The notes under the pieces were generated by a model. It ran no database searches. It worked only from the letters and a program-made list of their open reading frames with translations, and was not told the DNA's origin. Source: a virus. From it: 31,306 nucleotides of DNA. Shown in pieces: positions 6,309 through 30,856 of the stretch. Positions within the stretch are counted from its first letter, which is position 1. Each line of letters opens with the position of its first letter. The stretch lies in the IMG/VR virus record IMGVR_UViG_3300023179_000343, positions 1-31,306 of that record. One strand, 5' to 3'. The translations under genes and the position numbers were made by a program.

Positions 6309-6316
6309 ATAAATAT
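6309..6316 (-). promoter_or_regulatory. Class II motif ATATTTAT before phoH
   Basis: Coding strand TAATATTTATCAAC, 15 nt before the phoH ATG and overlapping the stop codon of the endonuclease gene. Putative late promoter; no -33 element visible. Confidence 0.5.
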
Positions 6317-7671
6317 TAAATATTTGGGCTAACCCATTCAAATTTATGATTTCCTGTATTCCATACTTTATAATATCCTCTACTAAGCATTATTTCATAT
6401 TCTGTTTTTGATTCATCTTCTCCTTGTTTTACAAGTATATCTTTTCTAAAATTAAACCTATTATATTTTATTTTAGATTTATACCAATGATAACCAGGTG
6501 GAGTAGGTTTTAAAGGTTTCATATTTAATTTATGATATAAACCTCCATCACTCCAATCTCTATTAGCATATGATAATATATTACTTGGGTTATATTTTTT
6601 AATAAAATATTTAAATAATTTAGAAGCGCCTCCTACTACATTGGTATTTAGTTTATTACAAAATCTTAGTAATTCGTATTTTCCTTCTACGTGATTTTGT
6701 TTTAGATTTTTTCTTAGTTTACTAAAAGTCATAACACTCACTAATTCATCTTTATAAAACAACCCTATATTATGTTTTGATATAGCATTACCTTGAAGAT
6801 GATTTGTTTTTAAAAATAAAACACTATCCTGTTTAGATATTTCTTTTACTACACAGTTACGAGCATATATTTTATTATCAGTAACATTAAATTGATGTTT
6901 AATCATAGATTTAATTATATTTTGATTATATATCCAATCACTATCCCATATATGGATAAGTTTTATCCCTAATTTATTACATTCTTTGGTTTTATTTAAA
7001 TGATAGTTTTTATCTTTTTTAAATAAATCTGAGTGATAATATGTTCCATTAAATTCTATAGCTAATTTTAATTCTGGGATATAAATGTCTATTTCTTTAC
7101 CTGATAATAAAGTATTATCATTTAGTATTATTTCTTTATGGTATATTTGTTTTATAAATTCTACTAATTGTTTTTCAGATTGTGAAATTCCTTTAAATAA
7201 TCCTTTTTCATTTTCTAATCTTTTAATAGCACTTAACCTCATTTTATTTTTAGTATCATCTGAGTGATTATGGTAACCAGGTTTAACCCAATCCCAGTGT
7301 CCTTTTATATATTCTCTAAACCATATTTCATCTCCGTTGTCATTTTTCCCAGAAGGTAGAAAAGAAGTAGGTTGATTACATCCACATTTACATAAAGGAG
7401 TAATATTATTATAATAATGTTTTAATATATATTCTTTTTTAGACAGTGAATGTTTTTTAGTAATATGGAACATTAAATTTCTCTGATCTGGAAAAGGGTT
7501 CCCACATTCTAAACATGTAAATTTATCAATGTTTAATTTTGTGTTTATTTTAGATGGATGAAATTCACCATATGTTTTTACATATTCTTTAGTATTAGTA
7601 TTATGTTTCCATTTTAGATGCATTGCTAAAGATCTAAAAGTAACTTCATCTTGACATATTTGACATTTCAT
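6316..7671 (-). CDS. Free-standing homing endonuclease: zinc fingers plus Vsr-like (EDxHD-type) nuclease
   Basis: A 451-residue protein. The N-terminus has two C2H2-like zinc fingers (C3-C6-H18-H23 and C53-C56-H69-H74) and a third Cys cluster (CKCGC near 94-98), likely for DNA binding. From about residue 165 is a Vsr/EDxHD-type nuclease core: SQSEKQLVEFI, GKEIDIYIPELKLAIEFNG, YYHSD, YHLNKTKECNKLGIKLIHIW, DSDW, with probable catalytic residues among E166, D195, E206, H213 and D243. The C-terminal half contains FLKTNHLQGN, LVSVMTFSKLR, YELLRFCNKLN, VVGGASKLFKYF and ILSYANRDWSDGGLY, a conserved extension I know from phage endonucleases of this kind. It is inserted between the capsid gene and phoH and is more AT-rich than the capsid gene, as expected of a mobile gene. 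Probably cuts a cognate intergenic or gene target in phages lacking it. Confidence 0.8.
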   Translation of the reverse strand: MKCQICQDEVTFRSLAMHLKWKHNTNTKEYVKTYGEFHPSKINTKLNIDKFTCLECGNPFPDQRNLMFHITKKHSLSKKEYILKHYYNNITPLCKCGCNQPTSFLPSGKNDNGDEIWFREYIKGHWDWVKPGYHNHSDDTKNKMRLSAIKRLENEKGLFKGISQSEKQLVEFIKQIYHKEIILNDNTLLSGKEIDIYIPELKLAIEFNGTYYHSDLFKKDKNYHLNKTKECNKLGIKLIHIWDSDWIYNQNIIKSMIKHQFNVTDNKIYARNCVVKEISKQDSVLFLKTNHLQGNAISKHNIGLFYKDELVSVMTFSKLRKNLKQNHVEGKYELLRFCNKLNTNVVGGASKLFKYFIKKYNPSNILSYANRDWSDGGLYHKLNMKPLKPTPPGYHWYKSKIKYNRFNFRKDILVKQGEDESKTEYEIMLSRGYYKVWNTGNHKFEWVSPNI

Positions 7672-7759: not shown

Positions 7760-9508
7760 TTAAAGAGTATTTAACCCACTAACGTATATTTTTCCATAAA
7801 ATTCCGGACGTAACATCTTCTTAGCGAAACGAGTTAACAATCCTTTACGTGGTGTGAAGGTTTGTGGATCGTAGATAAGAGGAGTCATGATCAATGGAAT
7901 GTAAGGAGCAAATACAGCACCTGCTTCTAAGAATTGCTTACCACGGAAACCAATCAAGATTGTGTTTTCAGTCATGTAAGGGTTTTTATAGATAGTGTAA
8001 CGGCTGTTAAATGAACCTGCTTTTTGTACACCAAATGCATATTCCATATCTGAAGTATCACCATTGCTGTTAGAAGCAAATCCTGGGATTGATTCGATAA
8101 TAGTAGCTACAGTTGGAGAACATACTAAGAAGTTAGCACCACCACGAAGTGTTAATTGGTGAATCTTGTTACTTAATTTTTGGAATTTAGTACCAAGAGT
8201 TTGGAACCAAGCACCTTGAGTGTTGTAGAATCCTAAACTTGCAGTGAAGTCAGTTCCACCAGCATTCAATGTAGTGTTGTTAACTGCGCTCCAATACTCA
8301 GTACCAGCAGCAGCGTCTTGGATCAACATATCCATGATTTCAAGGTCAATTTCTAATGAAATATACTCACTCATGATGTTTGTTAATTCAGCTTCCGCGT
8401 CTAAGTTTTGGTAAGCGTTTAAGTCTTGAGCGAATTCAGGTGTCCAAACTGCTTTTAACTTTTTAGTTTTAGCTGTAATAGCTTGTGATTGAAGTTGAAC
8501 GTTAATCTCTGGGATAACAATTGTAGTAGCACTTTCAGCGTTAGGAACTGAGTACGCGTTAGACGGTACTGCGTTTTGACCGCTGTTAGTAACATCTTCA
8601 AAATCACCACGAGTTGACATACCAGTTGTTTTGTTGAAGAACAAGGTATAAGATCCAGTTGGAGCAAGAGCATTACCTGAACCTGTGAAGTAGAATGTGA
8701 TGATTGTACCAGCAGTGTTTACATAAGTAAACGCAGATAAACTGTTAGCTACAGTAACTACAGAACCAACACCAGTTTCAGTTGTAGCAGAACCTGATAC
8801 TAATACGAAAGCACGAACACCTTCAATATCGTAGTTAGGTATAGCTGAAGTAGAAACTTGAGCTTTTAAAATTTGACCTGCAGATAATGAAGCTGATAAA
8901 GAGCTATCATAGTTTAATTCAGACCATGCTGTTACTGTTCCGATAGAACCTGTAGAAGCGTTAGCTGGAGCACCAGTTGAACCTGAAATTAAACCAAGTA
9001 CTGAAGATGAGAATTGGTTAGTAGAGTAAGCAAAACGACCAGCACCATATAAACCATTTGTTGTTGTGTTAGTAGCAAATGGATAAGTTGATGTTGAAGT
9101 CGAAGTACCACCATACATTGAGTTACCGTTAGTGAATGGGTTCTTAGTAGTACCATATTGGAAGTCTAAGAAGAATACAAGACCTGAAGGTAAGTTCATT
9201 GGTTGAACGCTAACGAATTCCTTCGCTGCGATTTGACCAAACACCTTACGAACTAAAGGTAATGCAATACCAGCCCATTGTTCACCAGTACCTACTGTAA
9301 ATGTAGCACCAGTACCAGTTGAAGAGTTTTCAACTACTAATTGCTTTGCTTGGTTTTCCAACATCAAAGCCATGTTGTTTTTGTTGACATCGTCACCCAT
9401 ACCTTCTAAAAGGCCGGTTACTTCCCATTTTTTAGCTAAACGGGCAGCATCACTTTGAAGTGATTTCCATGGGTTTGCAGATTCAACTAATGATTGAATT
9501 GATTCCAT
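7760..9508 (-). CDS. 23: Major capsid protein, T4 gp23-like
   Basis: A 582-residue protein (T4 gp23: 521). The region ALPLVRKVFGQIAAKEFVSVQPMNLPSGLVFFLDFQYG matches the T4 segment with NLIAFDICGVQPMNSPTGQVF. ITAKTKKLKAVWTPEFAQDLNAYQNLDAEAELTNIMSEYISLEID is the gp23 core signature, and GGANFLVCSPTVATIIES and the C-terminal LTRFAKKMLRPEFYGKIYVSGL also fit. Residues 1-60 look like a removable N-terminal segment; LVVE followed by N61 lies where T4 gp23 is cut by the gp21 protease (after E65). A Ser/Thr/Gly-rich insert (about 125-310) accounts for the extra length and may form an exposed insertion domain. Its transcription unit with gp22 is closed by a strong terminator; base composition is less AT-rich than its neighbours. 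Confidence 0.95.
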   Translation of the reverse strand: MESIQSLVESANPWKSLQSDAARLAKKWEVTGLLEGMGDDVNKNNMALMLENQAKQLVVENSSTGTGATFTVGTGEQWAGIALPLVRKVFGQIAAKEFVSVQPMNLPSGLVFFLDFQYGTTKNPFTNGNSMYGGTSTSTSTYPFATNTTTNGLYGAGRFAYSTNQFSSSVLGLISGSTGAPANASTGSIGTVTAWSELNYDSSLSASLSAGQILKAQVSTSAIPNYDIEGVRAFVLVSGSATTETGVGSVVTVANSLSAFTYVNTAGTIITFYFTGSGNALAPTGSYTLFFNKTTGMSTRGDFEDVTNSGQNAVPSNAYSVPNAESATTIVIPEINVQLQSQAITAKTKKLKAVWTPEFAQDLNAYQNLDAEAELTNIMSEYISLEIDLEIMDMLIQDAAAGTEYWSAVNNTTLNAGGTDFTASLGFYNTQGAWFQTLGTKFQKLSNKIHQLTLRGGANFLVCSPTVATIIESIPGFASNSNGDTSDMEYAFGVQKAGSFNSRYTIYKNPYMTENTILIGFRGKQFLEAGAVFAPYIPLIMTPLIYDPQTFTPRKGLLTRFAKKMLRPEFYGKIYVSGLNTL

Positions 9509-9539: not shown

Positions 9540-10628
9540 TTATTTTCTAAGACCAGCAATTTTTTGCATACGAGCAAAAGCTTCGTTTGTTTCAATTATT
9601 GGTTGTTTTGGGGTAGCAGGAGCGATTGTTCTAGAAGCTGAACCTAAAGATTCTTTAACTGGAGATTTTTTAACAATTGAAGTTGTCTTTAAGTTCTCAG
9701 TTAATGTTTCGTATACAAGTTTAACTCCTTTAACATTTTCTGCTTTGTCAAATGCGTTTAAAACCTTTACTTTGTCTGATTCGGTAAGATTTTTGGCTTT
9801 AAAGATTTTGTTAGTGTAAAGTAACTTAGCGTTTAAAAGGTTTACTTCATTTAACTCATTTCTTAATTCGTTAATTGTTTCTTCCATTTCTTTAGCTTCA
9901 GGTAAATCACCACCACCTGTATTTCTAGGAGCTGTAGCTTTACCTGCTTTTTCTAAGAAGTTAATTATAGATTTACCAGCACTACCTAACTTACCTGCTT
10001 TAGCCATATCTGATAATTTAGATACAGAAGCAGCTACTACAGGTAATCCAAAAGCTGATAGTACAGCTACAATAGCTGGATCTAAAGCTTCTGATACTAC
10101 TGTTTCTTCTTCCATTTCTTCAGTTTCAGATAAAAGTTCAGCTAACATTTCGTCGATATCTTTTTCATCATCCATGTCTTCCATGTCTGTGTCATCCATA
10201 TCTTCCATGTCTTCTTCACCTTCTTCTTCACCTTCACCTGCCATTAACTTACCAGATGCGATCATGTCATCAATGACTTGAGTTACAAGTGCTTCAATGT
10301 CTTCGTCTGACATTTCTTCAAGCATTAGATCTTCATCTAATTCTTCTTCCATGCCTTCTTCCATTTCTTCACCTTCCTCTTCCATTGATAACTCAGCTAG
10401 GATTTCATCGATATTGAAATTTTCATCCATACCTTCTTCTTCCATACTGTAATTTTCTTCAACACTCTCTTCTTCTACTTCTTTATCCATTTCGTTTAAC
10501 TTCTCAGCAAACATAGCGGTTAATTGTGGAGTAAAAGCTTCTTCGAGTGCTAATTTTGCGTTCGCGATAGCTGTTTCTTTAATAGTTTTAGCATCAGCGA
10601 TTGCTTGTTTAAGCGTTTCTCTGTTCAT
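9540..10628 (-). CDS. 22: Prohead scaffold protein, T4 gp22-like
   Basis: About 362 residues. I choose the ATG at 10628 (MNRETLKQ) rather than the TTG nine bases upstream; the bases before it, TTGAGGACA, include one of the few Shine-Dalgarno-like stretches. The protein has a helical N-terminus, then a very acidic Glu/Met-rich stretch (roughly residues 50-190), a hydrophobic segment (DPAIVAVLSAFGLPVVAASV), a coiled coil (ELRNELNEVNLLNAKLLYTNK), and KNLTESDKVKVLNAFDKAENVKGVKLVYETL, which I recognise in T4-like scaffolds. The end, NEAFARMQKIAGLRK, resembles the FLKMQKLAGI motif of the gene at 26241-26726. It supports head assembly before removal by the prohead protease. The gene sits directly upstream of the capsid gene, as in T4. 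Confidence 0.85.
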   Translation of the reverse strand: MNRETLKQAIADAKTIKETAIANAKLALEEAFTPQLTAMFAEKLNEMDKEVEEESVEENYSMEEEGMDENFNIDEILAELSMEEEGEEMEEGMEEELDEDLMLEEMSDEDIEALVTQVIDDMIASGKLMAGEGEEEGEEDMEDMDDTDMEDMDDEKDIDEMLAELLSETEEMEEETVVSEALDPAIVAVLSAFGLPVVAASVSKLSDMAKAGKLGSAGKSIINFLEKAGKATAPRNTGGGDLPEAKEMEETINELRNELNEVNLLNAKLLYTNKIFKAKNLTESDKVKVLNAFDKAENVKGVKLVYETLTENLKTTSIVKKSPVKESLGSASRTIAPATPKQPIIETNEAFARMQKIAGLRK

Positions 10629-10770
10629 TGTCCTCAAATAAATTTTGTTTTGGAAATACGTTTAATAGGAAACGTAATAGATTTGTTTACGTGTAATGCT
10701 ACATAGAGATGTGGGTAGCATATTTGAATATACATATATCAGTGTTCTTCAAAGTCGCGTTTTGTTGAAA
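10629..10770 (-). promoter_or_regulatory. Hairpin-rich leader of the gp22-gp23 unit
   Basis: About 140 non-coding bases between the gp21 terminator and the gp22 start. Three inverted repeats are visible: 10657-10676 (7-bp arms TACGTTT/AAACGTA), 10672-10692 (6-bp arms ACGTAA/TTACGT) and 10696-10721 (7-bp arms ATGCTAC/GTAGCAT). The first two share bases 10672-10676 and so exclude each other. The promoter must lie here or just upstream, but I cannot place it: neither class I nor class II motif is present. Confidence 0.45.
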
Positions 10771-10817: not shown

Positions 10818-11426
10818 TTAAAATATCGGGCAAGTTCCATTAGCACATAGTATTTCTGTGATAATAGAGTTTACTGGAGCATATTTGTTATATTGATTAT
10901 TTTTAGACTCGTTCATAGCACCTCTTTCTTTCATATATGAACCTGGATTTGAAGGTGTTGATACAAAGTCCCAACATAATAATTCAAAGTCGTCTTGTAC
11001 TTCCATCAAGTCACCCATTTGTCTTAATGAACCCATACCACGTGATGATACACCTATTGGTATTCTGTTTTCAAATAAGGCTTTTAAGATGTTTCCTGAT
11101 GGTGTAGGTAATATTTCTATAGCTCCCATTACATGGTCTCCATCCCACCAAATTCTTTTTATGTTGTGAGAAACGTTTTTTAAGTTAATAATAGATGAGT
11201 CTGGGTGATCTAATTCACCCAACGCTCTATTATGTTTTACATTGTCCATATATTTTTTAATCTCACGCTCCCACAAATCTCTAGAATAGTAACGACCATT
11301 ACCATTTTTAACCTCAGCTGTAGCTAATATTCCTTCAACAAGTATGTTACCATTATCTACTCCTTCTATAATACGAGCAGGTTTAGCATTAAATAAACTT
11401 GTTTCTATTAATATTTGTTTACTCAT
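10818..11426 (-). CDS. 21: Prohead core protease, T4 gp21-like
   Basis: A 202-residue serine protease of the T4 gp21 type. The catalytic His is in LGELDHPD (H74), the catalytic Ser in GVSSRGMG (S127 or S128) and the third residue is probably the Asp of CWDFVSTPSNPGS (D153). NGRYYSRDLWEREI is the usual N-terminal signature. In T4 this enzyme matures inside the prohead and cuts scaffold, capsid and internal proteins after L/I-x-E motifs. Several proteins in this window carry such sites. Its ATG overlaps the stop of the upstream 397-residue gene (TAATG), and an intrinsic terminator follows. Confidence 0.93.
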   Translation of the reverse strand: MSKQILIETSLFNAKPARIIEGVDNGNILVEGILATAEVKNGNGRYYSRDLWEREIKKYMDNVKHNRALGELDHPDSSIINLKNVSHNIKRIWWDGDHVMGAIEILPTPSGNILKALFENRIPIGVSSRGMGSLRQMGDLMEVQDDFELLCWDFVSTPSNPGSYMKERGAMNESKNNQYNKYAPVNSIITEILCANGTCPIF

Positions 11427-12619
11427 TATCCTTCAAATTTTTGAATTAAATGTTGTTCTAATTCATTTTTAAAACGGATATATGGTTTTGGTAGATTAGC
11501 TATTACATCCTCTACATTACCTAATTTATTATATAATTTTTCAGCAAACATAGCAGCTTTACTAAAAGCTACTTTATCTTCTGGAGTTAGACTTTCTTTA
11601 GCTAAATGTTTCCACATAGCAGCAGCGGCTACTTTTTCACCTGCTTCTTTTGAACCATATTGTTTAGCAGCTGTTTTAGCTACTTTTTCAAATCCTTTTC
11701 CTTTTTTACCTATATCTTTACCAGCGTGAGCTTTTTTAGATATAGTTGATTTTTCTTTCTTGGTTAAACCAGCTGATGGTTTCTTTTTAGTTTCAGCTAA
11801 TACTTCTTTAATTGTTTCTGAAATAAAAGCACGTAATACTGATTCTTTTAAATCACCATATCCTGAAGATTTATGTTTACCTTTAGCTTCTTTTGGAGTA
11901 CCTAAACCAGGTGCTTCAGTTGTGTAACCTATTCCTTTAACTCCAAATTGACCATCTTTAACATAGTGATTAACGTCTTTAGCTAAGTTTTTAGCTACAA
12001 TAGCTTTTAATTCATTAACATTTTTACCTTCGTTTTTAGGATCTTTCATTTCAGTATAGTATCCTTTTAAAAATTCTTGACCAAATACGTTGTCCCAATT
12101 CTTTTCATCTTTATAATCGTAACCACGTGTAGCCATATCAGTTACATCTTTGGTAGTTTCTTTTTCTACTGCTTTAGCTTCAGAAATTAATTTGTATGTT
12201 TTTCCTATTAAGTTTTTATTTGTCTTATTAGTATCACCTACTTTAACTTTTCCTTCCATTCCACCTAATTTAGTGTATTTACCTTCAATATCATTGCCTG
12301 ATATTTTAGTAATTTTAAATTCGGCTCCTGTTGATTTATGTTTAAGAGTGTCTCCTACTTTAGCTTCTTTTTCTTCTTTAAGATTAGCCATATTTTCTTT
12401 AAAAATATTATGCCAATCTTGTTTTTTACCTGTAGTTACTATACCACCTATACCTTCTGATATGATGCTTTTATTTTTTAACACAGTAACAGTATCATTA
12501 TATGATAAAGTAGGAGTAATAAGATCAGGGAAAGTATGACGAACAGTTCTCATAAAATGTTCTTTACTTCCTTTACCTTCTTTAATAAGGTTATATTGTT
12601 CTTGTAGTGTTTTATTCAT
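11426..12619 (-). CDS. Lysine-rich head-region protein of unknown function, possible prohead core or packaged protein
   Basis: A 397-residue, strongly basic protein in the T4 slot of the small prohead core genes (between portal and gp21). Possible gp21-type sites are IISE before GIGG, LISE before AKAV, and VLAE before TKKK. An internal stretch near residues 260-280, LRAFISETIKEVLAE, matches the targeting-like motif seen at the N-termini of other genes here. It is followed by KKEKSTISKKAHAGKDIGKK and YGSKEAGEKVAAAAMWKHLA, a conserved short domain I have seen in phage proteins but cannot name. The middle part (VGDTLKHKSTGAEFKITKI) looks like a small beta barrel. The first bases overlap the preceding gene by 8 nt. 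A role in the head is inferred from position and motifs only. Confidence 0.6.
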   Translation of the reverse strand: MNKTLQEQYNLIKEGKGSKEHFMRTVRHTFPDLITPTLSYNDTVTVLKNKSIISEGIGGIVTTGKKQDWHNIFKENMANLKEEKEAKVGDTLKHKSTGAEFKITKISGNDIEGKYTKLGGMEGKVKVGDTNKTNKNLIGKTYKLISEAKAVEKETTKDVTDMATRGYDYKDEKNWDNVFGQEFLKGYYTEMKDPKNEGKNVNELKAIVAKNLAKDVNHYVKDGQFGVKGIGYTTEAPGLGTPKEAKGKHKSSGYGDLKESVLRAFISETIKEVLAETKKKPSAGLTKKEKSTISKKAHAGKDIGKKGKGFEKVAKTAAKQYGSKEAGEKVAAAAMWKHLAKESLTPEDKVAFSKAAMFAEKLYNKLGNVEDVIANLPKPYIRFKNELEQHLIQKFEG

Positions 12620-13091
12620 GTTGTTTAAATAATTTTATTACGTCGTTTAAAAGTGAAACTGCTAAATCTGTACCATAAACAGCTCTAAATTCAGGGTTCT
12701 CACGATAACTATTTATTGTTTCTTTTTTAGCTTCTTGGAGTAGTTTTATAAGTTCTTTTAATTTACTTGATAATAAATCAAAATCACCTAAACGTCCTGC
12801 TATATATTTTTTTATTTCTTCATTATCAGTTGGTAACGATGATAAATATGATTCTATATCAAATCCAGTACCTTCTTCTTCCCATAGATGTTTAACATCA
12901 ATACCTTTAGCGGCTTTATTTAATTTCTTTTGGTTTACTGGCTTAAATCCTAATTTATAATAATATATAGGAGCTTTACCTGCTACTGGTGTAGCATAAC
13001 CTTCACCGGTGCCAGGAGTAAAAGAAGCACCAGTACCTGTGGCGCTTTCTTCTGATAATTTTTTAAATATTATATCTTTAAGTCTGCTCAT
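12612..13091 (-). CDS. Small head-region protein sharing a post-cleavage motif with the capsid protein
   Basis: A 159-residue protein. The N-terminus MSRLKDIIFKKLSE is a short amphipathic helix ending in L-S-E, followed at once by ESATGTGASFTPGTGEGYATP. The major capsid protein has NSSTGTGATFTVGTGEQW right after its own presumed cleavage site (LVVE). The rest is helical (YIAGRLGDFDLLSSKLKELIKLLQEAKKE) with no recognisable catalytic motif. The gene overlaps the upstream gene by 4 nt (ATGA) and the downstream gene by 8 nt. I infer a component of the prohead that is processed by gp21; it may replace T4 gp67 or gp68. Confidence 0.6.
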   Translation of the reverse strand: MSRLKDIIFKKLSEESATGTGASFTPGTGEGYATPVAGKAPIYYYKLGFKPVNQKKLNKAAKGIDVKHLWEEEGTGFDIESYLSSLPTDNEEIKKYIAGRLGDFDLLSSKLKELIKLLQEAKKETINSYRENPEFRAVYGTDLAVSLLNDVIKLFKQHE

Positions 13092-13942
13092 TTTATCTTT
13101 TCTAACTCTTCTACTAATTGATAATACTGAAGAAGATTGATTAAATGGTCGTCGTTAACTTTATCATTTTTACCTAAACTAGGTAATATATTAATAATCT
13201 CTTTTATCTTTATTTGAGTAGCTTTATCAGTTACTTGTTTATTTAGGTTAGATAAGTGAGATTTAATTTCATTTATTTTAGTGTTGTAGAACTCTTTTAA
13301 TTTGGGAGTACTGTCAACACCATTGATAAATTCTTTAAGAACATTCTTCTGATTAGTATTCAGATTACCATATTGGTCATTAAATTTCTCCAATAATACT
13401 CGGTAAGTTAAAATACGAACGTCTTTATCTTGAGTTTTAAATTCCTCTAAAATATTTTCTTTAACTTCTTTTCTATTTTGAGTTTTAGAAGTTAAATATT
13501 CTAGAAGTGATGTTTTATTTTCTATAATCTGGTCTGGATTAGATAGATTTTCACTGTTATAGACTTCTAATAATGTGAATAAAGCAGCTTGAGCTTTATA
13601 ATTAGGTAATTTAGTTTTAAAGAATTCTTCTAAATTATAATGCTCTTTAATTTCTTTAATTAAGTTATACTTTTGTCTTTTTAAAGCAGAGCGATTTAAA
13701 TGCTTTGAACTCTCAATAAGAGTAGTAATTACCATATCAGCTTTAGCTTCGCTAGTATTCTTATTTTTAAAGAAACTTTCGTATATTTTATATTCTTTAC
13801 CTAACTCAGTTTTACTAAAATATTTTTTTAAAATACCTGTAGCCGGTGATTCTACTCCTGATAAAGTATCAGCTGTGATTTGTCTCACAAGTAGTTCAAA
13901 AAGGATACCTGTATTCTTATACTTCGAATGTTTGATAGTCAT
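13088..13942 (-). CDS. Conserved helical protein next to the portal gene, unknown function
   Basis: A 284-residue, Lys/Glu/Leu-rich, almost wholly helical protein. The N-terminus KYKNTGILFELLVRQITADTLSG followed by ILKKYFSKTELGKEYKIYE is a pattern I remember from aquatic T4-like phages in the same place after the portal gene, but no function is known to me. No membrane segment or enzymatic motif is visible. A class II motif ends 19 nt upstream of its ATG, and the gene overlaps the next one by 4 nt. Candidate prohead core or portal-associated assembly factor by position. Confidence 0.6.
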   Translation of the reverse strand: MTIKHSKYKNTGILFELLVRQITADTLSGVESPATGILKKYFSKTELGKEYKIYESFFKNKNTSEAKADMVITTLIESSKHLNRSALKRQKYNLIKEIKEHYNLEEFFKTKLPNYKAQAALFTLLEVYNSENLSNPDQIIENKTSLLEYLTSKTQNRKEVKENILEEFKTQDKDVRILTYRVLLEKFNDQYGNLNTNQKNVLKEFINGVDSTPKLKEFYNTKINEIKSHLSNLNKQVTDKATQIKIKEIINILPSLGKNDKVNDDHLINLLQYYQLVEELEKIK

Positions 13943-13980: not shown

Positions 13981-15867
13981 TTATTCACGTATCTGTGATT
14001 CATCTAAAAGCGAAGAATCATCTTTCTTAAATACTAATTTTTTATCTAAGGATTCAAGTAATTTAGAGTTCTTTTTAGCACTCTCCATAGCTAATGGTGA
14101 GCCACCTTTATAGTTAGGTTTTAAACTTGGACCTTCAGTGTCATCTACTTTCATATCATGTTTACCTAATCTGTCTCTACCAAAAGCATTACCCTGAGTG
14201 TTGATATTTGATACTTTTTCTTCAGGTCTACCTAAAGGAGAATCTTTATCATATCCATCCGGAACACCCATTCCATTTCTTCCTGAGCCATATAATGCTG
14301 CTAAGTCATGAGGTGTACCATATGATTTACCTGATTCAAGTGGATCGTTACCTTCATTTTCAATTTGTTTAAATCTGAAAGTACGTTTTTGGTCTTCAGC
14401 TATTAACGCTCTATATTCATCAAATTGATCCTCGCTTAAGTGGAATATATTATCATAAATCCAATCTGTTGGCAATAATTTAGTTTCCATAATATTGCGG
14501 GCTAAATCCACTTTTTCCTTCATTAAAGCCACTCTTTCTTGGTCGTATATTATAGAAGGTGTAGTTAAAGACAATTCAAAGTTAGTTAAATTTTCATTTC
14601 TATAACCTTGAGTATATAAGTGAACTAAAGCTATTTTGTATAGTTCTGAAAGAACAATACGTTGCAATCTATCAATTGTACGAGCAAAACGAATATCTTC
14701 TGCTGCTAAAGTTGCTTTACCTGTTAAGTCTTTTTCATATCCCATGAACGCTTTAGGTACTTTTAATGCAGCAAATAATTTATCTCTTAAATAAACTACA
14801 TCATCAATAGCTGTATATTCTAATCCTTTAGTAGGTTCAATCTTAGTTGTTGTGTCATTACCTCTCATTGGAATATAAAAGTCTTCTAATGAGTTTTGTA
14901 AGTTATATTTTAAATTATATTCACCTGTTTGTGGATCAATAAACGGAGTTCTCTTCATTGTTGAGATAGTCTTCTGCATGAAGTTTTCTACTTCGTTTGG
15001 TGGAATAGAACCTACATTAATATAGAAAATACGTTTTTCTGGGGCACGAACAATACGATGGATTAACATAGCGTCTTCCATTAGTATATATTGTTTAAAT
15101 AATTTACGTGCTGGTTCTAGATAAGAACGACCATAAGGAAGATAATTAGTGTCAGCTATTAATCTAAAGTGAGCCATTTCATAATTATCAAAATAAATTG
15201 CTCCTGCTTGTTTTTCCTTACTGTAAGTAGAGGCGGCATTCACACCACCATATCCACCTGTCACACCTGAATTATAACCATCTGGGCTGTATCTGTATCT
15301 TACTTCAGCTGGACTTTTAGGATCCATACCTTCTTCTCTAGATATATGATATGCGGTGTAAGGTATAACATTATATACACCAAATTTTTCAGCTATTTCT
15401 AATTTTAAGAAAAAGTCTCCATATTTGCACATTTGACGAATCCAACTCCATAAGTTAAATTCGATATTTAATACATCATAAAATAAGTTATATAGAATTT
15501 TCTGTGTATCTTCATCACTACTTCTAATTTGAAGTACTTCTCCCATATCGTTTTTTAAAGTACACTCATCAGCTATAATATCTAAAGCAGAAGCTACAAT
15601 AGCATCTGTATCCATAGCGTCATAGTCTGAATAAACCTGAGTACGTAAGTATCTCCAGTTTAAGTTTAACTGTGAACCGTATAATGATGTGGTATTACTT
15701 GAGTAAATACGACTGTATCTGTCTACTAAAGCATTTGTTTTAAATTCTCCTGTAGATTGGATACTATTAACGTCCATTACTTTTAACTGGTTACCACCAG
15801 CGTTTCTAATTATGACGTCTGTGGAGAATAATCTCTGTAATCTTGAAAATAAGCCTGTATCAGCCAT
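13981..15867 (-). CDS. 20: Portal vertex protein, T4 gp20-like
   Basis: A 628-residue protein (T4 gp20: 524). Recognisable portal stretches include YSDYDAMDTDAIVASALDIIADE, GEVLQIRSSD, WSWIRQMCKYGDFFLKLEI, MAHFRLIADTNYLPYGRSYLEPARKLFKQ, MLIHRIVRAPEKRIFYINVG and KVPKAFMGYEKDLTGKATLA. It forms the dodecameric ring through which DNA is pumped, and nucleates prohead assembly. The extra length is mainly a Gly/Ser/Lys-rich C-terminal tail (after about residue 500) ending DDSSLLDESQIRE. It follows the terminase gene by 26 nt, with a class II motif in the gap; tail sheath and tube genes, which separate gp17 and gp20 in T4, are absent here. Confidence 0.95.
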   Translation of the reverse strand: MADTGLFSRLQRLFSTDVIIRNAGGNQLKVMDVNSIQSTGEFKTNALVDRYSRIYSSNTTSLYGSQLNLNWRYLRTQVYSDYDAMDTDAIVASALDIIADECTLKNDMGEVLQIRSSDEDTQKILYNLFYDVLNIEFNLWSWIRQMCKYGDFFLKLEIAEKFGVYNVIPYTAYHISREEGMDPKSPAEVRYRYSPDGYNSGVTGGYGGVNAASTYSKEKQAGAIYFDNYEMAHFRLIADTNYLPYGRSYLEPARKLFKQYILMEDAMLIHRIVRAPEKRIFYINVGSIPPNEVENFMQKTISTMKRTPFIDPQTGEYNLKYNLQNSLEDFYIPMRGNDTTTKIEPTKGLEYTAIDDVVYLRDKLFAALKVPKAFMGYEKDLTGKATLAAEDIRFARTIDRLQRIVLSELYKIALVHLYTQGYRNENLTNFELSLTTPSIIYDQERVALMKEKVDLARNIMETKLLPTDWIYDNIFHLSEDQFDEYRALIAEDQKRTFRFKQIENEGNDPLESGKSYGTPHDLAALYGSGRNGMGVPDGYDKDSPLGRPEEKVSNINTQGNAFGRDRLGKHDMKVDDTEGPSLKPNYKGGSPLAMESAKKNSKLLESLDKKLVFKKDDSSLLDESQIRE

Positions 15868-17500: not shown

Positions 17501-17974
17501 TTAACCTATGATATCAGATATCAGAGCTTTAAGGTCTTTACCACCGTCTTTAAACAATTTTTTAATCTCAGGTTTGCTGATTAATTGTTTAACAATAGCG
17601 ATGTTATCTTTAGTTGGATTAGCTAATTTTTTCTTTATACCTGCTTCAACTTTGTTCAAACGTTCTTGATCAGCTGGTGATAATTTTTTAGCTAGTTTGC
17701 TTGAATTGAATTCTTTGTCGATTTTCTTCAATTCTGCTTTTGAAGGTTCTTTTTCAGGAGCATCAAATTCGTCTTCAGTTTCTTTTAATTTTTGTCCACC
17801 AGTAGTTGTTATACTAGTAACATTAGGATCTGTTTTTAAAGGATTTAATTCAGTTGGGTTTTTAACCGGAACTACTTTTGTACCTGTTTTAGTAGCAACT
17901 AAGGCATTTATATCTTCACTTAATATTTCAGTGATTATTTCTTCAATTTGTTTTTTTAACTCTGAGCGTTTCAT
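17501..17974 (-). CDS. Small protein with a targeting-like N-terminus, in the gp16 (small terminase) position
   Basis: A 157-residue protein just upstream of gp17, where T4 has gp16 (164 residues). The N-terminus MKRSELKKQIEEIITEILSE is an amphipathic helix ending in I-L-S-E, like the possible capsid-targeting motif of other genes in this window. The middle is Thr/Pro/Lys-rich and likely disordered; the C-terminus is helical (LSPADQERLNKVEAGIKKKL, KPEIKKLFKDGGKDLKALI). I see no helix-turn-helix or gp16 signature, so a small terminase role is only positional and a head-packaged protein is equally possible. A class II motif ends 15 nt before the ATG. Confidence 0.5.
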   Translation of the reverse strand: MKRSELKKQIEEIITEILSEDINALVATKTGTKVVPVKNPTELNPLKTDPNVTSITTTGGQKLKETEDEFDAPEKEPSKAELKKIDKEFNSSKLAKKLSPADQERLNKVEAGIKKKLANPTKDNIAIVKQLISKPEIKKLFKDGGKDLKALISDIIG

Positions 17975-24551: not shown

Positions 24552-25145
24552 TTATTTATATTTCCATTTATACCCGAAAGCCGTTTTTTGCCTACCTAGT
24601 ATAGCATCTTTTATTTGAGAAGTCAAATTTCCTTGTTTTTTCTTTGTTTCTTTTATCCACTCAGCTGCTTGACCTTTACTTTCCCATTCTTTAATTAAAT
24701 TATTATCTAAATCATACATCAACAATGGTTTAGCTTGCTTACGTTTAGCAATTAACATATTTTGTTGATGTTCTTTAGTAAATGGTTTTAATTTGCCTTT
24801 ATTGCCATTACTTATTTTTTCTTTAACTTCATCTGTATAATATTGAGAATGGTTTTGTAATGATGCTTTTATTTTAGCATTTCTTTCTGGTGGTGAAATC
24901 CATCCTGGTCCTCTTCCACCACCACCATTATTTTTATTCTCTAAATTAAATCCCCATGATTTAAACAGTTCAATATACCATGATTCCCAAAATCTCCATT
25001 CATCATCATCTACACAATCTATTTCAATTATTTCACTGTTTTTATTTTTACCTTTATGAGTATAAAAACGTTCTTTTATTCTTTGTAGTGTTTTACCAAC
25101 ATAAAATGGAATACCATTTCTTTCTAATATATAAATTTTAGTCAT
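24552..25145 (-). CDS. GIY-YIG homing endonuclease with NUMOD3 and NUMOD1 motifs
   Basis: A 197-residue protein. The GIY-YIG nuclease domain starts KIYILERNGIPFYVGKTLQRIKERF (variant IYI/YVG motifs, Arg in the following helix) and continues to WESWYIELFKSWGF with the catalytic Glu probably E54. LKPFTKEHQQN and VKEKISNGNKGK are NUMOD3-like DNA-binding segments; the C-terminus QAAEWI and IKDAILGRQKTAFGYKWKY is NUMOD1. It is free-standing, placed between the HKNHP protein gene and the FAD dehydrogenase, 1 nt from the latter. A class II motif ends 11 nt upstream. Probably a mobile gene that entered this site. Confidence 0.9.
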   Translation of the reverse strand: MTKIYILERNGIPFYVGKTLQRIKERFYTHKGKNKNSEIIEIDCVDDDEWRFWESWYIELFKSWGFNLENKNNGGGGRGPGWISPPERNAKIKASLQNHSQYYTDEVKEKISNGNKGKLKPFTKEHQQNMLIAKRKQAKPLLMYDLDNNLIKEWESKGQAAEWIKETKKKQGNLTSQIKDAILGRQKTAFGYKWKYK

Positions 25146-26240: not shown

Positions 26241-26726
26241 TCAATTAAGCTTTTTTTTTTGACGATACTGAGTTTCAGTAATAATACCTGCTAATTTTTG
26301 CATTTTAAGGAATGACTCATTTAATGCTTCTTCTTTCATGCCTTCGTCTTCTACTTCCATTTTCTCCATCACATCAGCTTCATCAACTGGTGATTCTTCA
26401 ACTTTAGCATCAGTTACTACTTCGTCTTTTTTATCTTTGCTTGCTTTTTTATTAGCTTTCTTTTCTTTAGCTTTTTCAAATTTAGCTTTAGCTTTCTTAA
26501 GTTCTTTAATTTCGTTTTCAAGACCTTTAATCTTGCCTTCATCCATTAAATCTTTATGATCACTTTCAGCGATAGCGTTTAATTTAGCTTCACGCATTTG
26601 AATAGCTTCTTCACATTTTGCAATACGAGCTTCCATAGCAGCATCTTCAGCAGCACCATCAATTTCCTTAATATATTCTTGAATTGATTCGCGTATAATT
26701 GAACGTACTCTTTCTATTGTATTCAT
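26241..26726 (-). CDS. Helical protein with targeting-like N-terminus; ends just after an A10 frameshift site
   Basis: A 161-residue, highly charged coiled-coil protein. The N-terminus MNTIERVRSIIRESIQEYIKE is an amphipathic helix like those of other genes here. The middle is Lys/Glu-rich (ENEIKELKKAKAKFEKAKEK), then an acidic section, and near the C-terminus NESFLKMQKLAGIITETQYR, a motif also seen at the end of the scaffold protein (NEAFARMQKIAGL). Translation stops shortly after a run of ten A. In the +1 frame the sequence remains open for another 157 residues, giving a fusion of about 315 residues. Candidate packaged head protein. Confidence 0.65.
   Translation of the reverse strand: MNTIERVRSIIRESIQEYIKEIDGAAEDAAMEARIAKCEEAIQMREAKLNAIAESDHKDLMDEGKIKGLENEIKELKKAKAKFEKAKEKKANKKASKDKKDEVVTDAKVEESPVDEADVMEKMEVEDEGMKEEALNESFLKMQKLAGIITETQYRQKKKLN
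26251..26260 (-). other. A10 homopolymer, frameshift or slippage site
   Basis: Ten consecutive A on the coding strand between CGTC and GCTTAATTGA. The upstream frame meets TGA 9 nt later; one A fewer would join it to the downstream open frame. It may be transcriptional slippage, ribosomal frameshifting, a real mutation or a sequencing error. Confidence 0.6.
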
Positions 26727-26766: not shown

Positions 26767-28080
26767 TTATACTGTTTTCTTTTCTACTGATTTAGTTAAT
26801 TTAAAGTTTCTCACACCTTTAATCGCTCTAATATCAGTAAATAATTGTTGTAAATCTTCATCTTTGAATCCTGTAGAGAATGGATGTGGGTCTATTTTAA
26901 TTTTAAGTAAGATGTAATAATTTGGGTTACTAAAAGCGGTGTCATTTGGGTTAATATCTTTAGAAGATACAATTGTTATACCTGGTAATGAACGAATATC
27001 TGATAATATATCTTTTTGAGGGCGTTCTTCAGTGTTAGTAAGAAGTGTTCCTTCAACATAGTATTGAGTTGATTCTTCTTTAATAATATTTTTAACTAGA
27101 TCTGTTAATTTAGTAGATTCATTTACTCCAGTAGCGTCAAAATCATCTGCTCTTAAATCAGTTTCAATATCTGAAATTGTATTTTGAACCCAATCTATTT
27201 GTTGTGGAGTTAAATTTTCATTGATAGCGTTTTCTATAAATGAGAAAAACTCACTGTCTGCTAATTTATAAACATCTTGGAAAAAGAATGATTGTACTCT
27301 ACTATCATCTGATTCAGCAAACGCTGAGAATATGTTATTGATTGCTTTATAGATAAATTTACCATAACGAATATCTTCTGGCTCATTTTCTAATTTGTCA
27401 ACTTGTCTAACAATAGCTTGTTTAGTTTCTCTGTCTCCTTTAAGACCGCTTTGTCCTAAAATACCAAAATATCCTTTAAGTAACTCATGTACTAACATAG
27501 GAAAACACACAGCTCTAGCTCTAATACTTAAAGCCTCAGTTATTACAATTTTAGAAGAACCTCCAGCTAATTTTTGTCCACCAGCTACCGCTGCTAACAT
27601 TAAAGCTATAGCGTCATCATTATCATATATACCAAAAGTATTATTCATTATTTGATTGTACTTATCATATAATGAAGGATTAATCTCGTCTAGATGATTT
27701 CGGAAAATACGAAATAATTCAGTCATACTAACTACAGATGCTCCTTGAGTAATAGCATTGATAACACGACGACGTTTCTCTCCAGGAGTAGCTTCATCTA
27801 ATGATCTTCCTACATCAGATAAACTAACTATTTTAGCATCTATCCCAATATTTTCTTGATCAATAATTGGATATTTTTCTTTAAGTATAGATACGGCTAA
27901 ATTTTCTAATCGAGATTTATATGGACTCTCAGCTGAAATAATGTCATTTAATAGCTTTTGTGAAGACATCATCACCTGCATTAAACTACGATTACCAATC
28001 ATCAGTTGTAAACTATCAGCTGATTTTTGGTTTAATCTATTTAAAGTCTCAGGACTAAATATGTCTCTATATTGTGCCAT
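26767..28080 (-). CDS. Conserved phage protein of unknown function, two-part structure
   Basis: A 437-residue protein. Residues 1-320 are helical (LMQVMMSSQKLLNDIISAES, AIALMLAAVAGGQKLAGG, VCFPMLVHELLKGYFGILG). A joining stretch NESTKLTDLVKNIIKEES (about 320-338) resembles the targeting and cleavage motif found at the N-termini of neighbouring proteins. The C-terminal domain, QKDILSDIRSLPGITIV to IRAIKGVRNFKL, looks like a ferredoxin/ACT-like beta-alpha-beta fold. I have seen this arrangement in aquatic phages as a hypothetical protein. The start overlaps the preceding stop by one base (TAATG). The internal L-x-x-I-I-K-E-E might be a protease site separating the two domains. Confidence 0.65.
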   Translation of the reverse strand: MAQYRDIFSPETLNRLNQKSADSLQLMIGNRSLMQVMMSSQKLLNDIISAESPYKSRLENLAVSILKEKYPIIDQENIGIDAKIVSLSDVGRSLDEATPGEKRRRVINAITQGASVVSMTELFRIFRNHLDEINPSLYDKYNQIMNNTFGIYDNDDAIALMLAAVAGGQKLAGGSSKIVITEALSIRARAVCFPMLVHELLKGYFGILGQSGLKGDRETKQAIVRQVDKLENEPEDIRYGKFIYKAINNIFSAFAESDDSRVQSFFFQDVYKLADSEFFSFIENAINENLTPQQIDWVQNTISDIETDLRADDFDATGVNESTKLTDLVKNIIKEESTQYYVEGTLLTNTEERPQKDILSDIRSLPGITIVSSKDINPNDTAFSNPNYYILLKIKIDPHPFSTGFKDEDLQQLFTDIRAIKGVRNFKLTKSVEKKTV

Positions 28081-28298
28081 TATTTTTTACCTTGTTTAAA
28101 TCTTTGAGCTATTTTTTTAGCGATTGCTTTTGCTGGTTCTTCAACTGGTTCTTCAGGAGAAATAGTTCTACGTCTTGTAGGAGTAGTTGGTTTTGTTTCA
28201 ACATCGGTCTCTGGCTCAGCTATTTGTGGTTGAGGAGCTTCAGCTAATACTTTTTCTATTTCTTCTCTGATAATTCTTCTTAAATCTGATTTTTTCAT
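28080..28298 (-). CDS. Small protein with clear targeting-like leader (LRRIIREEIEKVLAE)
   Basis: A 72-residue protein: MKKSDLRRIIREEIEKVLAE then A, followed by a Pro/Thr/Glu-rich, disordered and finally basic segment (KAIAKKIAQRFKQGKK). The first 20 residues form an amphipathic helix ending in V-L-A-E, and the next residue is Ala, as in T4 internal proteins cut by gp21. The basic remainder could bind DNA in the head. It overlaps the 853-residue gene by 4 nt (ATGA) and the next gene by one base, and a class II motif ends 16 nt upstream, inside the end of the preceding gene. Confidence 0.65.
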   Translation of the reverse strand: MKKSDLRRIIREEIEKVLAEAPQPQIAEPETDVETKPTTPTRRRTISPEEPVEEPAKAIAKKIAQRFKQGKK

Positions 28299-30856
28299 TT
28301 TTTTAATGTTTGTAATAAATATTTGATTTCTTCTAACTCTTGAGGTCTAGTTAAAGTATGCATATGGATAATAGGTGCTTTCATATCTTCAGCTAAATTA
28401 CGTTGTCGTAAAGCATCTATTAAGGCGTTAGCGTTAGGTATAGAGAATGCTGTTTGAGCTGTTACAATATAATGTCGAGCATCTGGTTGCATGGCTACTG
28501 ATCCTATCATAGTACCACTAGCTAAACGAATAACATAAAATTTACTTTGTCCTGCTGTAATAACACCTGTTACTCTACCTCTAGTTCCTAAAGCACCATT
28601 TCTACGAGTAGCTCCTCTATCAGTATTAACTGGGGTTACGCTTCCATTTATTAATCTGTTTCTTACACCTGTTGGTAAAGCGTCAAATCCTGTAGTTAAC
28701 CCAGCTTGAGTAAGTAAATCTATAGTATCTTGGCCTCCACCTTGAGCAGGAGTAGCTGTTGGTTCTGCTTGTCTAGTAGTACCTGCTGTTCTTCCTCTTC
28801 TACCAGTAGCGGCGGGTCTAGCAGGAGGTTCAACTCCTAACATTCTAGCAGCTAAATTAGGTGGAATATTAGCTTTAATTAATTTTCCACTATTAGAAGA
28901 TATTTTTTTACTTTCTCTAGAGTTAGTTTTATTCACAAGATATACTACTCCTTCATATTCAACTATTTTATAAATATTATCTTCAGTTAATGGTGGATCA
29001 GCTTTAGCAAAGTTTTCACCAATATAATATGTGTATCGAAACCTATTTAATAACTGGTTAGTGTCGTAAGCTAGGTTTTGACTTCTTAGATATTCAAAAA
29101 ATGCTTTCCATGAATTCAAATCTGCTCTTGATGGACCAGCAAATCTTCCAGTATCTAACCATTGATTTTCATAATAATTATTTTGGAGAGGGTTATTTGA
29201 TATCCAAGCTTGTATATTATTAGTTTCAGGTACAGCTATAAAAACATGACTATTACCATCATGAATTACTGTTCTTCTATTATAAGGAGTAGAATTAAGA
29301 ATAGGAATTATATTTGATATAGGTACACTACTAATATCTGTAAATTGTGATAATAATCTTACTACACCATCTTGAAAACTATTATTACCTTCCTCGCTTG
29401 TTAATATACTTTGTACTGAGTCATCATTAAAAGGTACAGATTTAAATTTACCATCTTCGTACTTATATGCTTTAAAATTATTTGAATCAAGTAATATTTG
29501 TCCTTCATCTGTATCTTTAATTATAATCGCAGAATTAGGATCTGTTTTAGCTTTTTCAATTACTTTATCTAAAGATTCTTTAGGTAAAATATTATCTGAT
29601 ACTAATTTAACTATAGTTTCAAATGGTAATTTATCTAACTCAGGATACTCAGCTAAATATTTACCAGTACGTTCATTTATTTTTATATTTGGGTGACTTT
29701 CATTTTCTGTAAAAATACCCATTTTAACTTCACCTTGACTAAATTTTAATTTAACTATTGCTTTATCATCTTTAGTTATATAATATCTTTCATTTTCTGG
29801 AATTTGTAAAAGATTACCTTTTACCACTGCTTTTTTAGCAGACCAAGGATAAGCATCTGATTCTATAATGTTAGAATTAACTTTTGTAAATCTAGAAGCG
29901 TTAGCTATAATTGATTTTTGGTACTTAGGTACAAAAGAATCAAATTCTTGTAACAAAGTAAGTATATCTATATACCCATAATTCTCAGCTATCATTTCAG
30001 CTATTTGAGGTAATTTAGGTAATACCTTAGCTACAAAATTTTGATTACTTATGTCTGAAAATAGTTGTTGTTCTTTTCTAACTACAAGGTATTGCTCTTT
30101 AAATGAGTATGGAGCTTTAAGCCATTCTCCTACTGTTATGGCTTTATTTTTGTATATTTGAGATAATTTTTCTGATTTAGATATAGGAATATATCTGAAT
30201 ACACTTTGTAATCCACGTACTGAAGGGAAGTTTTGTTCAACAAATGACCATGGTTCCCATCTATTCCATTCTGTATGTCTTCCACCTACATCATTATTTG
30301 ATCTATCAGAAACTTTATATGTGTTATCACTACCAACTACAACGACAAAGAAACTTTTTCTATCATCATTTGGTAAATTTGTATCTTTTACTAAATAGAA
30401 TGTTGGGTTTTTTCTATTTGAATCATAACGATAGGTAGCAAATGATCCTCTAGTAATACACCATTTTTCTCCTCTACCAAAATTTAAACAGTTTTCTTCA
30501 TTACTACCATTATAAATGATAAGACCATTTTCATTATAAACAACATCAGGAGTGATGTCTGCTGCATCTGGTTCTTCTTCAGTTGAACCTTTATATGAAG
30601 ATACAAGTTTAATTAAAGACTGTAGTGAGTATTTATTTAAATCTTTTTCTGTTACTTTAGGATTATTTTTTAATCTTGAGTCAAAAAAGTCAATATAGTC
30701 ACTTAGTTGTTTGTCAGTAATTTCAACATTATAGTCATCAGCTTCTTGTTTAAATTTATCTATTAATTGTTGTTTAACTCTAGGAGCTAAAGCTTCAGAT
30801 AAATTATTTTGCCAATTATTAACTAAGTGTTCTATTAATTTATAAATATTCTTCAC
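28295..30856 (-). CDS. Large multidomain protein with WCITR domain; candidate packaged or ejected protein
   Basis: An 853-residue protein with a GTG start overlapping the preceding TGA (GTGA). The N-terminus MKNIYKLIEHLVNNWQNNLSE before ALAP looks like a cleavable capsid-targeting segment. A domain at about 100-240 contains VVYNENGLIIYNGSNEENCL, EKWCITRGSFATYRYDS, PTFYLVKD and FFVVVVGSDNTYKVSD; I have met this W-C-I-S/T-R domain in large aquatic phage proteins, function unknown. Middle regions are helical and beta-mixed. A Pro/Ala/Arg-rich linker near 680-712 (RPAATGRRGRTAGTTRQ) leads to a C-terminal alpha/beta domain ending MKAPIIHMHTLTRPQELEEIKYLLQ. Size, leader and linker recall T4 Alt-type internal proteins, but no ADP-ribosyltransferase motif is seen. 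Confidence 0.65.
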   Translation of the reverse strand: MKNIYKLIEHLVNNWQNNLSEALAPRVKQQLIDKFKQEADDYNVEITDKQLSDYIDFFDSRLKNNPKVTEKDLNKYSLQSLIKLVSSYKGSTEEEPDAADITPDVVYNENGLIIYNGSNEENCLNFGRGEKWCITRGSFATYRYDSNRKNPTFYLVKDTNLPNDDRKSFFVVVVGSDNTYKVSDRSNNDVGGRHTEWNRWEPWSFVEQNFPSVRGLQSVFRYIPISKSEKLSQIYKNKAITVGEWLKAPYSFKEQYLVVRKEQQLFSDISNQNFVAKVLPKLPQIAEMIAENYGYIDILTLLQEFDSFVPKYQKSIIANASRFTKVNSNIIESDAYPWSAKKAVVKGNLLQIPENERYYITKDDKAIVKLKFSQGEVKMGIFTENESHPNIKINERTGKYLAEYPELDKLPFETIVKLVSDNILPKESLDKVIEKAKTDPNSAIIIKDTDEGQILLDSNNFKAYKYEDGKFKSVPFNDDSVQSILTSEEGNNSFQDGVVRLLSQFTDISSVPISNIIPILNSTPYNRRTVIHDGNSHVFIAVPETNNIQAWISNNPLQNNYYENQWLDTGRFAGPSRADLNSWKAFFEYLRSQNLAYDTNQLLNRFRYTYYIGENFAKADPPLTEDNIYKIVEYEGVVYLVNKTNSRESKKISSNSGKLIKANIPPNLAARMLGVEPPARPAATGRRGRTAGTTRQAEPTATPAQGGGQDTIDLLTQAGLTTGFDALPTGVRNRLINGSVTPVNTDRGATRRNGALGTRGRVTGVITAGQSKFYVIRLASGTMIGSVAMQPDARHYIVTAQTAFSIPNANALIDALRQRNLAEDMKAPIIHMHTLTRPQELEEIKYLLQTLKK
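28315..28322 (-). promoter_or_regulatory. Class II motif ATATTTAT before the 72-residue gene
   Basis: Coding strand CAAATATTTATTACAAAC, 16 nt before the ATG and within the final codons of the 853-residue gene. Overlap with coding sequence weakens the case. Confidence 0.35.

Follow-up and report, generated by a model that had tools for sequence, protein, structure and literature searches.

A capsid-like segment behind a putative cleavage site in a small head-module protein of far-T4 phages

The head module and the p159 family

The window considered here is a 31.3-kb virus record with a T4-type head module on its minus strand; the gene order is terminase, portal (gp20), p284, p159, p397, prohead protease (gp21), a core-like acidic protein and capsid protein (gp23). 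All head-module genes given below lie on this strand. The portal protein of the T4 gp20 family (13981..15867) is recognized by Portal_T4 (8.7e-66), the prohead protease of the T4 gp21 family (10818..11426) by Peptidase_S77 (1e-28), and the 582-aa major capsid protein (MCP) of the T4 gp23 family (7760..9508) by Pfam Gp23 (3.5e-73) and phrog_138 (6.4e-69), with further matches to T4 gp23* PDB chains. The acidic core- or scaffold-like protein (9540..10637) occupies the gp22 position and is assigned on position and composition. Between portal and protease lie p284 (13088..13942), a conserved head-module protein; p159 (12612..13091), a 159-residue protein defined by its open reading frame and its homologues; and p397 (11426..12619), to which no function is assigned and whose open frame varies from about 220 to 670 residues across homologues (L001-L281). 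Relatives of the MCP among isolates are found in Flavobacterium phage immuto, at 54% identity, in Microcystis phage Mel-JY01 and in Rhodothermus phage RM378, which serves as reference for the "Far-T4" group (PMC4360716), and the window is a fragment of a far-T4 myovirus. By eye, genes resembling homing or Vsr-type endonucleases lie at 6316-7671 and 24552-25145 (minus strand), one of them being the next gene behind that of the capsid protein.

The libraries searched hold no description of the p159 family: p159 has no match in Pfam or PHROGs, its relatives have weak matches or none, and tblastn of p159 in the phage collection gave no match. Homologues occur in 41 further loci, mostly likewise between p284 and p397 or gp21. 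Residues 1-14 (MSRLKDIIFKKLSE; 13050..13091) make up a putative capsid-targeting propeptide, a predicted helix (residues 3-14 in the AlphaFold2 model) that ends in LxE. Residues 15-32 (ESATGTGASFTPGTGEGY; 12996..13049) are the capsid-like segment and the predicted mature N-terminus, and residues 33-159 (12615..12995) carry ATPxAF-type and YYYKLG[FY]KPV motifs followed by a helical C-terminal domain, as judged from the alignment and the model. AlphaFold2 gives residues 15-41 a pLDDT mostly below 50, predicting disorder, and places C-terminal helices at 91-131 and 141-156, outside of which the model is poor. A fold search with this model returned no significant match in BFVD or the PDB. The possibility that p159 is itself a capsid-fold protein of the gp23/gp24 type was rejected, given the lack of a Pfam match and a helical model without fold matches.

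Three capsid searches added many loci to those of the p159 search, and pairing of the segments locus by locus gave 145 p159/capsid pairs, of which 112 were unique; one misread pair was dropped and another put right ahead of the tests, so that 111 were kept. Selection of pairs relied on a TPxAF-type anchor and an upstream Glu, and the capsid sequence played no part in it. Two forms of p159 emerge from this set: a long form with a segment of 18-22 residues, present in 58 of the 111 pairs, and a short form without the capsid-like segment in the other 53, with about 10 residues (MSTTAGVGGYLTPYAF-like) or 14 (ANVTGNLDGGAGPPKTPYAF-like) instead. The form switches at least 14 times on the capsid-protein tree. 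The stretch before the site is exchangeable, at 14-20 residues in many homologues and about 95-140 in others, while the segment and the site stay. In three loci the C-terminal domain is a separate gene of about 97 aa beside a shorter p159 (L038 6067, L039 6157, L041 4883), reflecting gene fission or fusion. The homologues in phages immuto (QQO92116.1) and Mel-JY01 (WWT39308.1), both annotated as hypothetical, share the locus, an LxE-type site and a TPxAF-type motif with p159, but are unlike it in having the short form without the capsid-like segment.

A segment shared with the capsid protein

In p159, KKLSE is followed by ESATGTGASFTPGTGEGY (residues 10-32, with the segment at 13049-12996), and in the MCP, QLVVE is followed by NSSTGTGATFTVGTGEQW (residues 56-78, with the segment at 9328-9275). 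The two segments are identical at 12 of 18 residues in the same register after the Glu, and their DNA is identical at 33 of 54 bases (61%). The original prediction that such a shared segment follows a Glu in both proteins is thus borne out, although its capsid interval, 9283-9330, was a few bases off the 9275-9328 found here; it was also right that the DNA across the block is not closely similar, that conservation lies at the protein rather than the DNA level (the codon usage discussed below agrees), and that the segments are in register behind the presumed cleavage site. E60 is invariant in 39 of 39 aligned MCPs and E14 in 26 of 26 aligned p159 homologues. As a Glu was demanded in the extraction of pairs, its invariance rests on these alignments. 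Position P3 is L, I, V or M in 95 of 102 readable cases. The first 60 residues of the MCP (9329..9508) are accordingly a predicted propeptide ending in QLVVE60, given the invariance of E60 and a location N-terminal to the region alignable to mature T4 gp23*.

Because G, S and T abound in the segment, composition accounts for some of the similarity between p159 and the MCP. One might therefore take it for a flexible Gly/Ser/Thr-rich linker that composition favours in both proteins and that has no specific partner; it is of low complexity and predicted to be disordered, and the short-form relatives manage without it. The Smith-Waterman score of the two complete proteins, 74, however, is reached in none of 3000 shuffles of p159 (mean 34-35, sd 5, maximum 67), whether shuffling is global or within 20-residue blocks, and with p159 as a tblastn-type query on its own record, the MCP is the sole other place hit (E=2.4e-4). 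Nor is the segment widespread among proteins: a profile of the p159 segments run against 17,191 ORF segments from 280 sequences retrieved capsid proteins (best E 2.8e-8) and p159 proteins, the next best protein having an E of 2.0, and a capsid-segment profile had the same outcome. The matches in ten records of 27 to 170 kb lie on frames that agree in size and place with the capsid gene, the p159 gene or both, and no third gene gave a clear match. Together with the position-specific covariation described below, these results make a linker without a partner very improbable.

Covariation of the two segments

In the long-form set, the match of each p159 segment to the capsid segment of its own genome has a centred score of 16.6 (null sd 1.43), which none of 20000 permutations reached, in line with the covariation that had been predicted. 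Relatives at 70-80% capsid identity average 9.0, and the own pair outscores relatives of 60-99.9% capsid identity in 51 of 58 cases (Wilcoxon p 3e-8). The effect persists with one representative per cluster, at capsid identities below 75% (44 representatives, z 9.2), 70% (26, z 8.5) and 65% (15, z 5.3), with 0/20000 permutations in each case; below 60% just 6 representatives are left, and 81 of 20000 permutations reach the score. Because own pairs outscore close relatives and the effect is kept per cluster, relatedness alone does not explain the covariation. Position by position, identity exceeds that under shuffling over a stretch that opens at P1' and stops two residues short of the terminal aromatic, reaching about 20 residues beyond the cut. 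Segment lengths are also correlated (Spearman 0.52), and insertions are common to both segments, as in L085 (TNTIATNSSFTSGTEGENW and INSISSNSSFNSGTEGENY) and L118 (SSQTGAGTAGAAFTAGVGEQW and MSMTGGGTAGAAFSPGVGMNY); a test of length on branch-independent pairs had 4 usable pairs only and hence no power. Tracking is loose among the closest relatives of the window, where SGTNGENW in the MCP stands opposite an AGTGENY-type sequence in p159, and in L029 the MCP segment is kept and that of p159 has diverged. Short forms show no covariation (2340 of 20000 permutations). Absence of the motif from homologues of p159 had been named as grounds for abandoning the idea; the outcome is divided, the 58 long forms carrying it and the 53 short forms not.

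With similarity extending over about 20 residues, insertions included, one could suppose that the MCP gene was simply the source of the p159 N-terminus, through a duplication or recurrent gene conversion, with no function in common. Among 483 identical aligned Gly/Thr/Ala/Ser/Pro/Val/Leu/Arg residues in own pairs, however, 48% use the same codon, where codon usage would predict 51%; between genomes the share is 42%. This lack of an excess in codon identity makes recent gene conversion unlikely, as does the 61% DNA identity in the window. An old copy without function would drift and not go on covarying, and an old copy with continued covariation requires selection. Functionless copying is therefore very unlikely.

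A second proposal, one of two put forward in the original prediction, is that the gp21-type protease recognizes the segment, as an extended P' side or an exosite. The invariant Glu before the segment and the prevalence of L, I, V or M at P3 in both proteins are what such a role would lead one to expect. Against it, other proteins of the window whose helix-like N-terminal stretch terminates in [LI]xE (17501-17974, 26241-26726 and 28080-28298) have no such segment; MKRSELKKQIEEIITEILSE followed by DINAL and MKKSDLRRIIREEIEKVLAE followed by APQPQ are examples of the same type of site. The scaffold, p397 and p284 have no segment either. In the 58 loci taken together, 906 further [LIVM]xE sites close to N-termini never exceed a score of 18 against the capsid segment, compared with a mean of 52 and a minimum of 23 for p159 against its own capsid segment. 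The absence of the segment from third proteins and from these other sites argues that protease recognition alone is an unlikely explanation, as does the strong covariation at 15-20 residues from the cut; protease windows, moreover, are unremarkable in the comparison that follows. We regard this reading as quite improbable, and of the two roles first proposed, it is the contact with the capsid lattice that is favoured.

That comparison covered about 450 windows in six head proteins (MCP, protease, p284, p397, core and portal), with overall relatedness removed before tracking was computed. The windows of the MCP segment track p159 best (0.38), some portal windows reach 0.26, and protease windows reach 0.20. 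As a search for the docking site, this sliding-window analysis singled out the MCP segment alone, the rest being too weak to name a receptor. A window of the scaffold core, DIDEMLAELLSETEE, has the top tracking outside the MCP (0.275 with p159 and 0.386 with the MCP segment). Taken with the portal values, and with the report that the N-fists of T4 gp23 (see below) lack order within the prohead, which also contains core proteins (PMC9958956), this would suit a model in which the two segments have a third binding partner during assembly, such as the scaffold core, the portal region or another head protein. The correlations are well below that of the MCP segment, however, and the core alignment is gappy and acidic at that place, so that a third partner appears unlikely, if worth keeping in view.

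Possible docking at N-fist sites

In its alignment to mature T4 gp23*, the capsid profile covers that chain from residue 10 onward, with the MCP segment at the start. Judged by sequence, and with the position of the cut taken from T4, the MCP segment (residues 61-78) is the positional counterpart of the T4 gp23 N-fist; an AlphaFold2 model of the MCP (mean pLDDT 57) was too uncertain for use. The T4 N-fist comprises gp23 residues 66-91 (PMC7136217), the 25 residues that follow the cut. It touches four subunits belonging to two capsomers, and the N-terminal region, without order in the prohead, gains it on expansion (PMC9958956). The N-fists of the five portal-facing subunits are disordered because they have no neighbouring capsomer (PMC7136217). 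In T4 the N-fist is described in gp23* only, unlike the present case, in which a second, unrelated protein has a copy; the likeness lies in the location directly after the gp21 cut, in the profile alignment of the MCP segment and in the disorder before docking in T4, for which the predicted disorder of the p159 segment between its helix and its helical domain is a parallel. No N-fist twin was found in the head regions of T4, Prochlorococcus phage Syn1 or Methylophilales phage Melnitz, and the open-access literature searched mentions the N-fist for T4 only and no second protein that copies it.

That the two segments change together across phages suggests that p159 docks on the shell by imitation. 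On balance, we lean towards the interpretation that p159 is a head protein that is targeted to the prohead, is processed by gp21 and then docks at lattice sites through a new N-terminus in which the N-fist is mimicked. p159 would enter the head via its short helical targeting propeptide, and the gp21-type protease, the presumed enzyme for both cuts, would cleave it after E14 as it would the MCP after E60. Mature p159 could then use its freed N-terminus to imitate the MCP N-fist and occupy the lattice sites at which N-fists dock, most probably those that are vacant for lack of an N-fist donor or that are filled by sub-stoichiometric replacement, and would thereby anchor its helical body to the shell. 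Cleavage, encapsidation, docking, the exact site and the purpose (at the portal vertex, in vacancies or in an internal layer) are steps that we infer. The short forms, with neither mimic nor covariation, imply that docking is dispensable there or is done otherwise.

Nine large records, reached from L055, L065, L083, L128, L171, L198, L210, L262 and L271, have one Gp23-family gene each and no gp24-like paralogue, so the vertex sites may differ from those of T4. A more specific suggestion, which we consider doubtful, is that in such single-gp23 phages without gp24, p159 is a dedicated N-fist donor that fills empty sockets at the portal or other vertices; it might then tether an internal protein layer to the shell and mark or reinforce the symmetry-mismatched vertex.

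If docking by mimicry is correct, a phage head protein attaches by copying the post-cleavage docking peptide of the shell protein, and the copy is kept by co-evolution. This would offer a testable entry to the organisation of far-T4 heads without a gp24-type vertex protein, predict a maturation site for the uncharacterised p159 family and suggest a peptide for tethering cargo inside such heads. Within-genome covariation of unrelated proteins would also be a sequence-only route to docking mimics in other phages.

Judged by its predicted helix ending in [LI]xE and by the gp21-type protease in the module, p159 may be a T4-type internal head protein that bears a capsid-targeting sequence and is processed by gp21. 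It resembles T4 IPI-III and Alt in its short N-terminal helix ending in [LI]xE, in its place beside portal, protease, scaffold and capsid genes, and in being putatively cut by a gp21 homologue; it differs in that their conserved part is the targeting peptide, whereas that of p159 lies after the cut and is capsid-like. The position of its gene between portal (gp20) and protease (gp21) recalls T4 gp68 and gp67, to which it shows no resemblance by eye, although small, fast-evolving proteins could hide homology. In T4, gp67 and gp68 end up as small peptides through degradation (PMC9958956); p159, unlike them, combines a single conserved site near its N-terminus with a C-terminal domain that is also conserved. 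Four other proteins of the window, at 17501-17974, 26241-26726, 28080-28298 and 28295-30856 (minus strand), open with a short charged stretch, helix-like and terminated by [LI]xE (MKKSDLRRIIREEIEKVLAE is one such); these starts resemble T4 capsid-targeting sequences, and the proteins may be internal head proteins.
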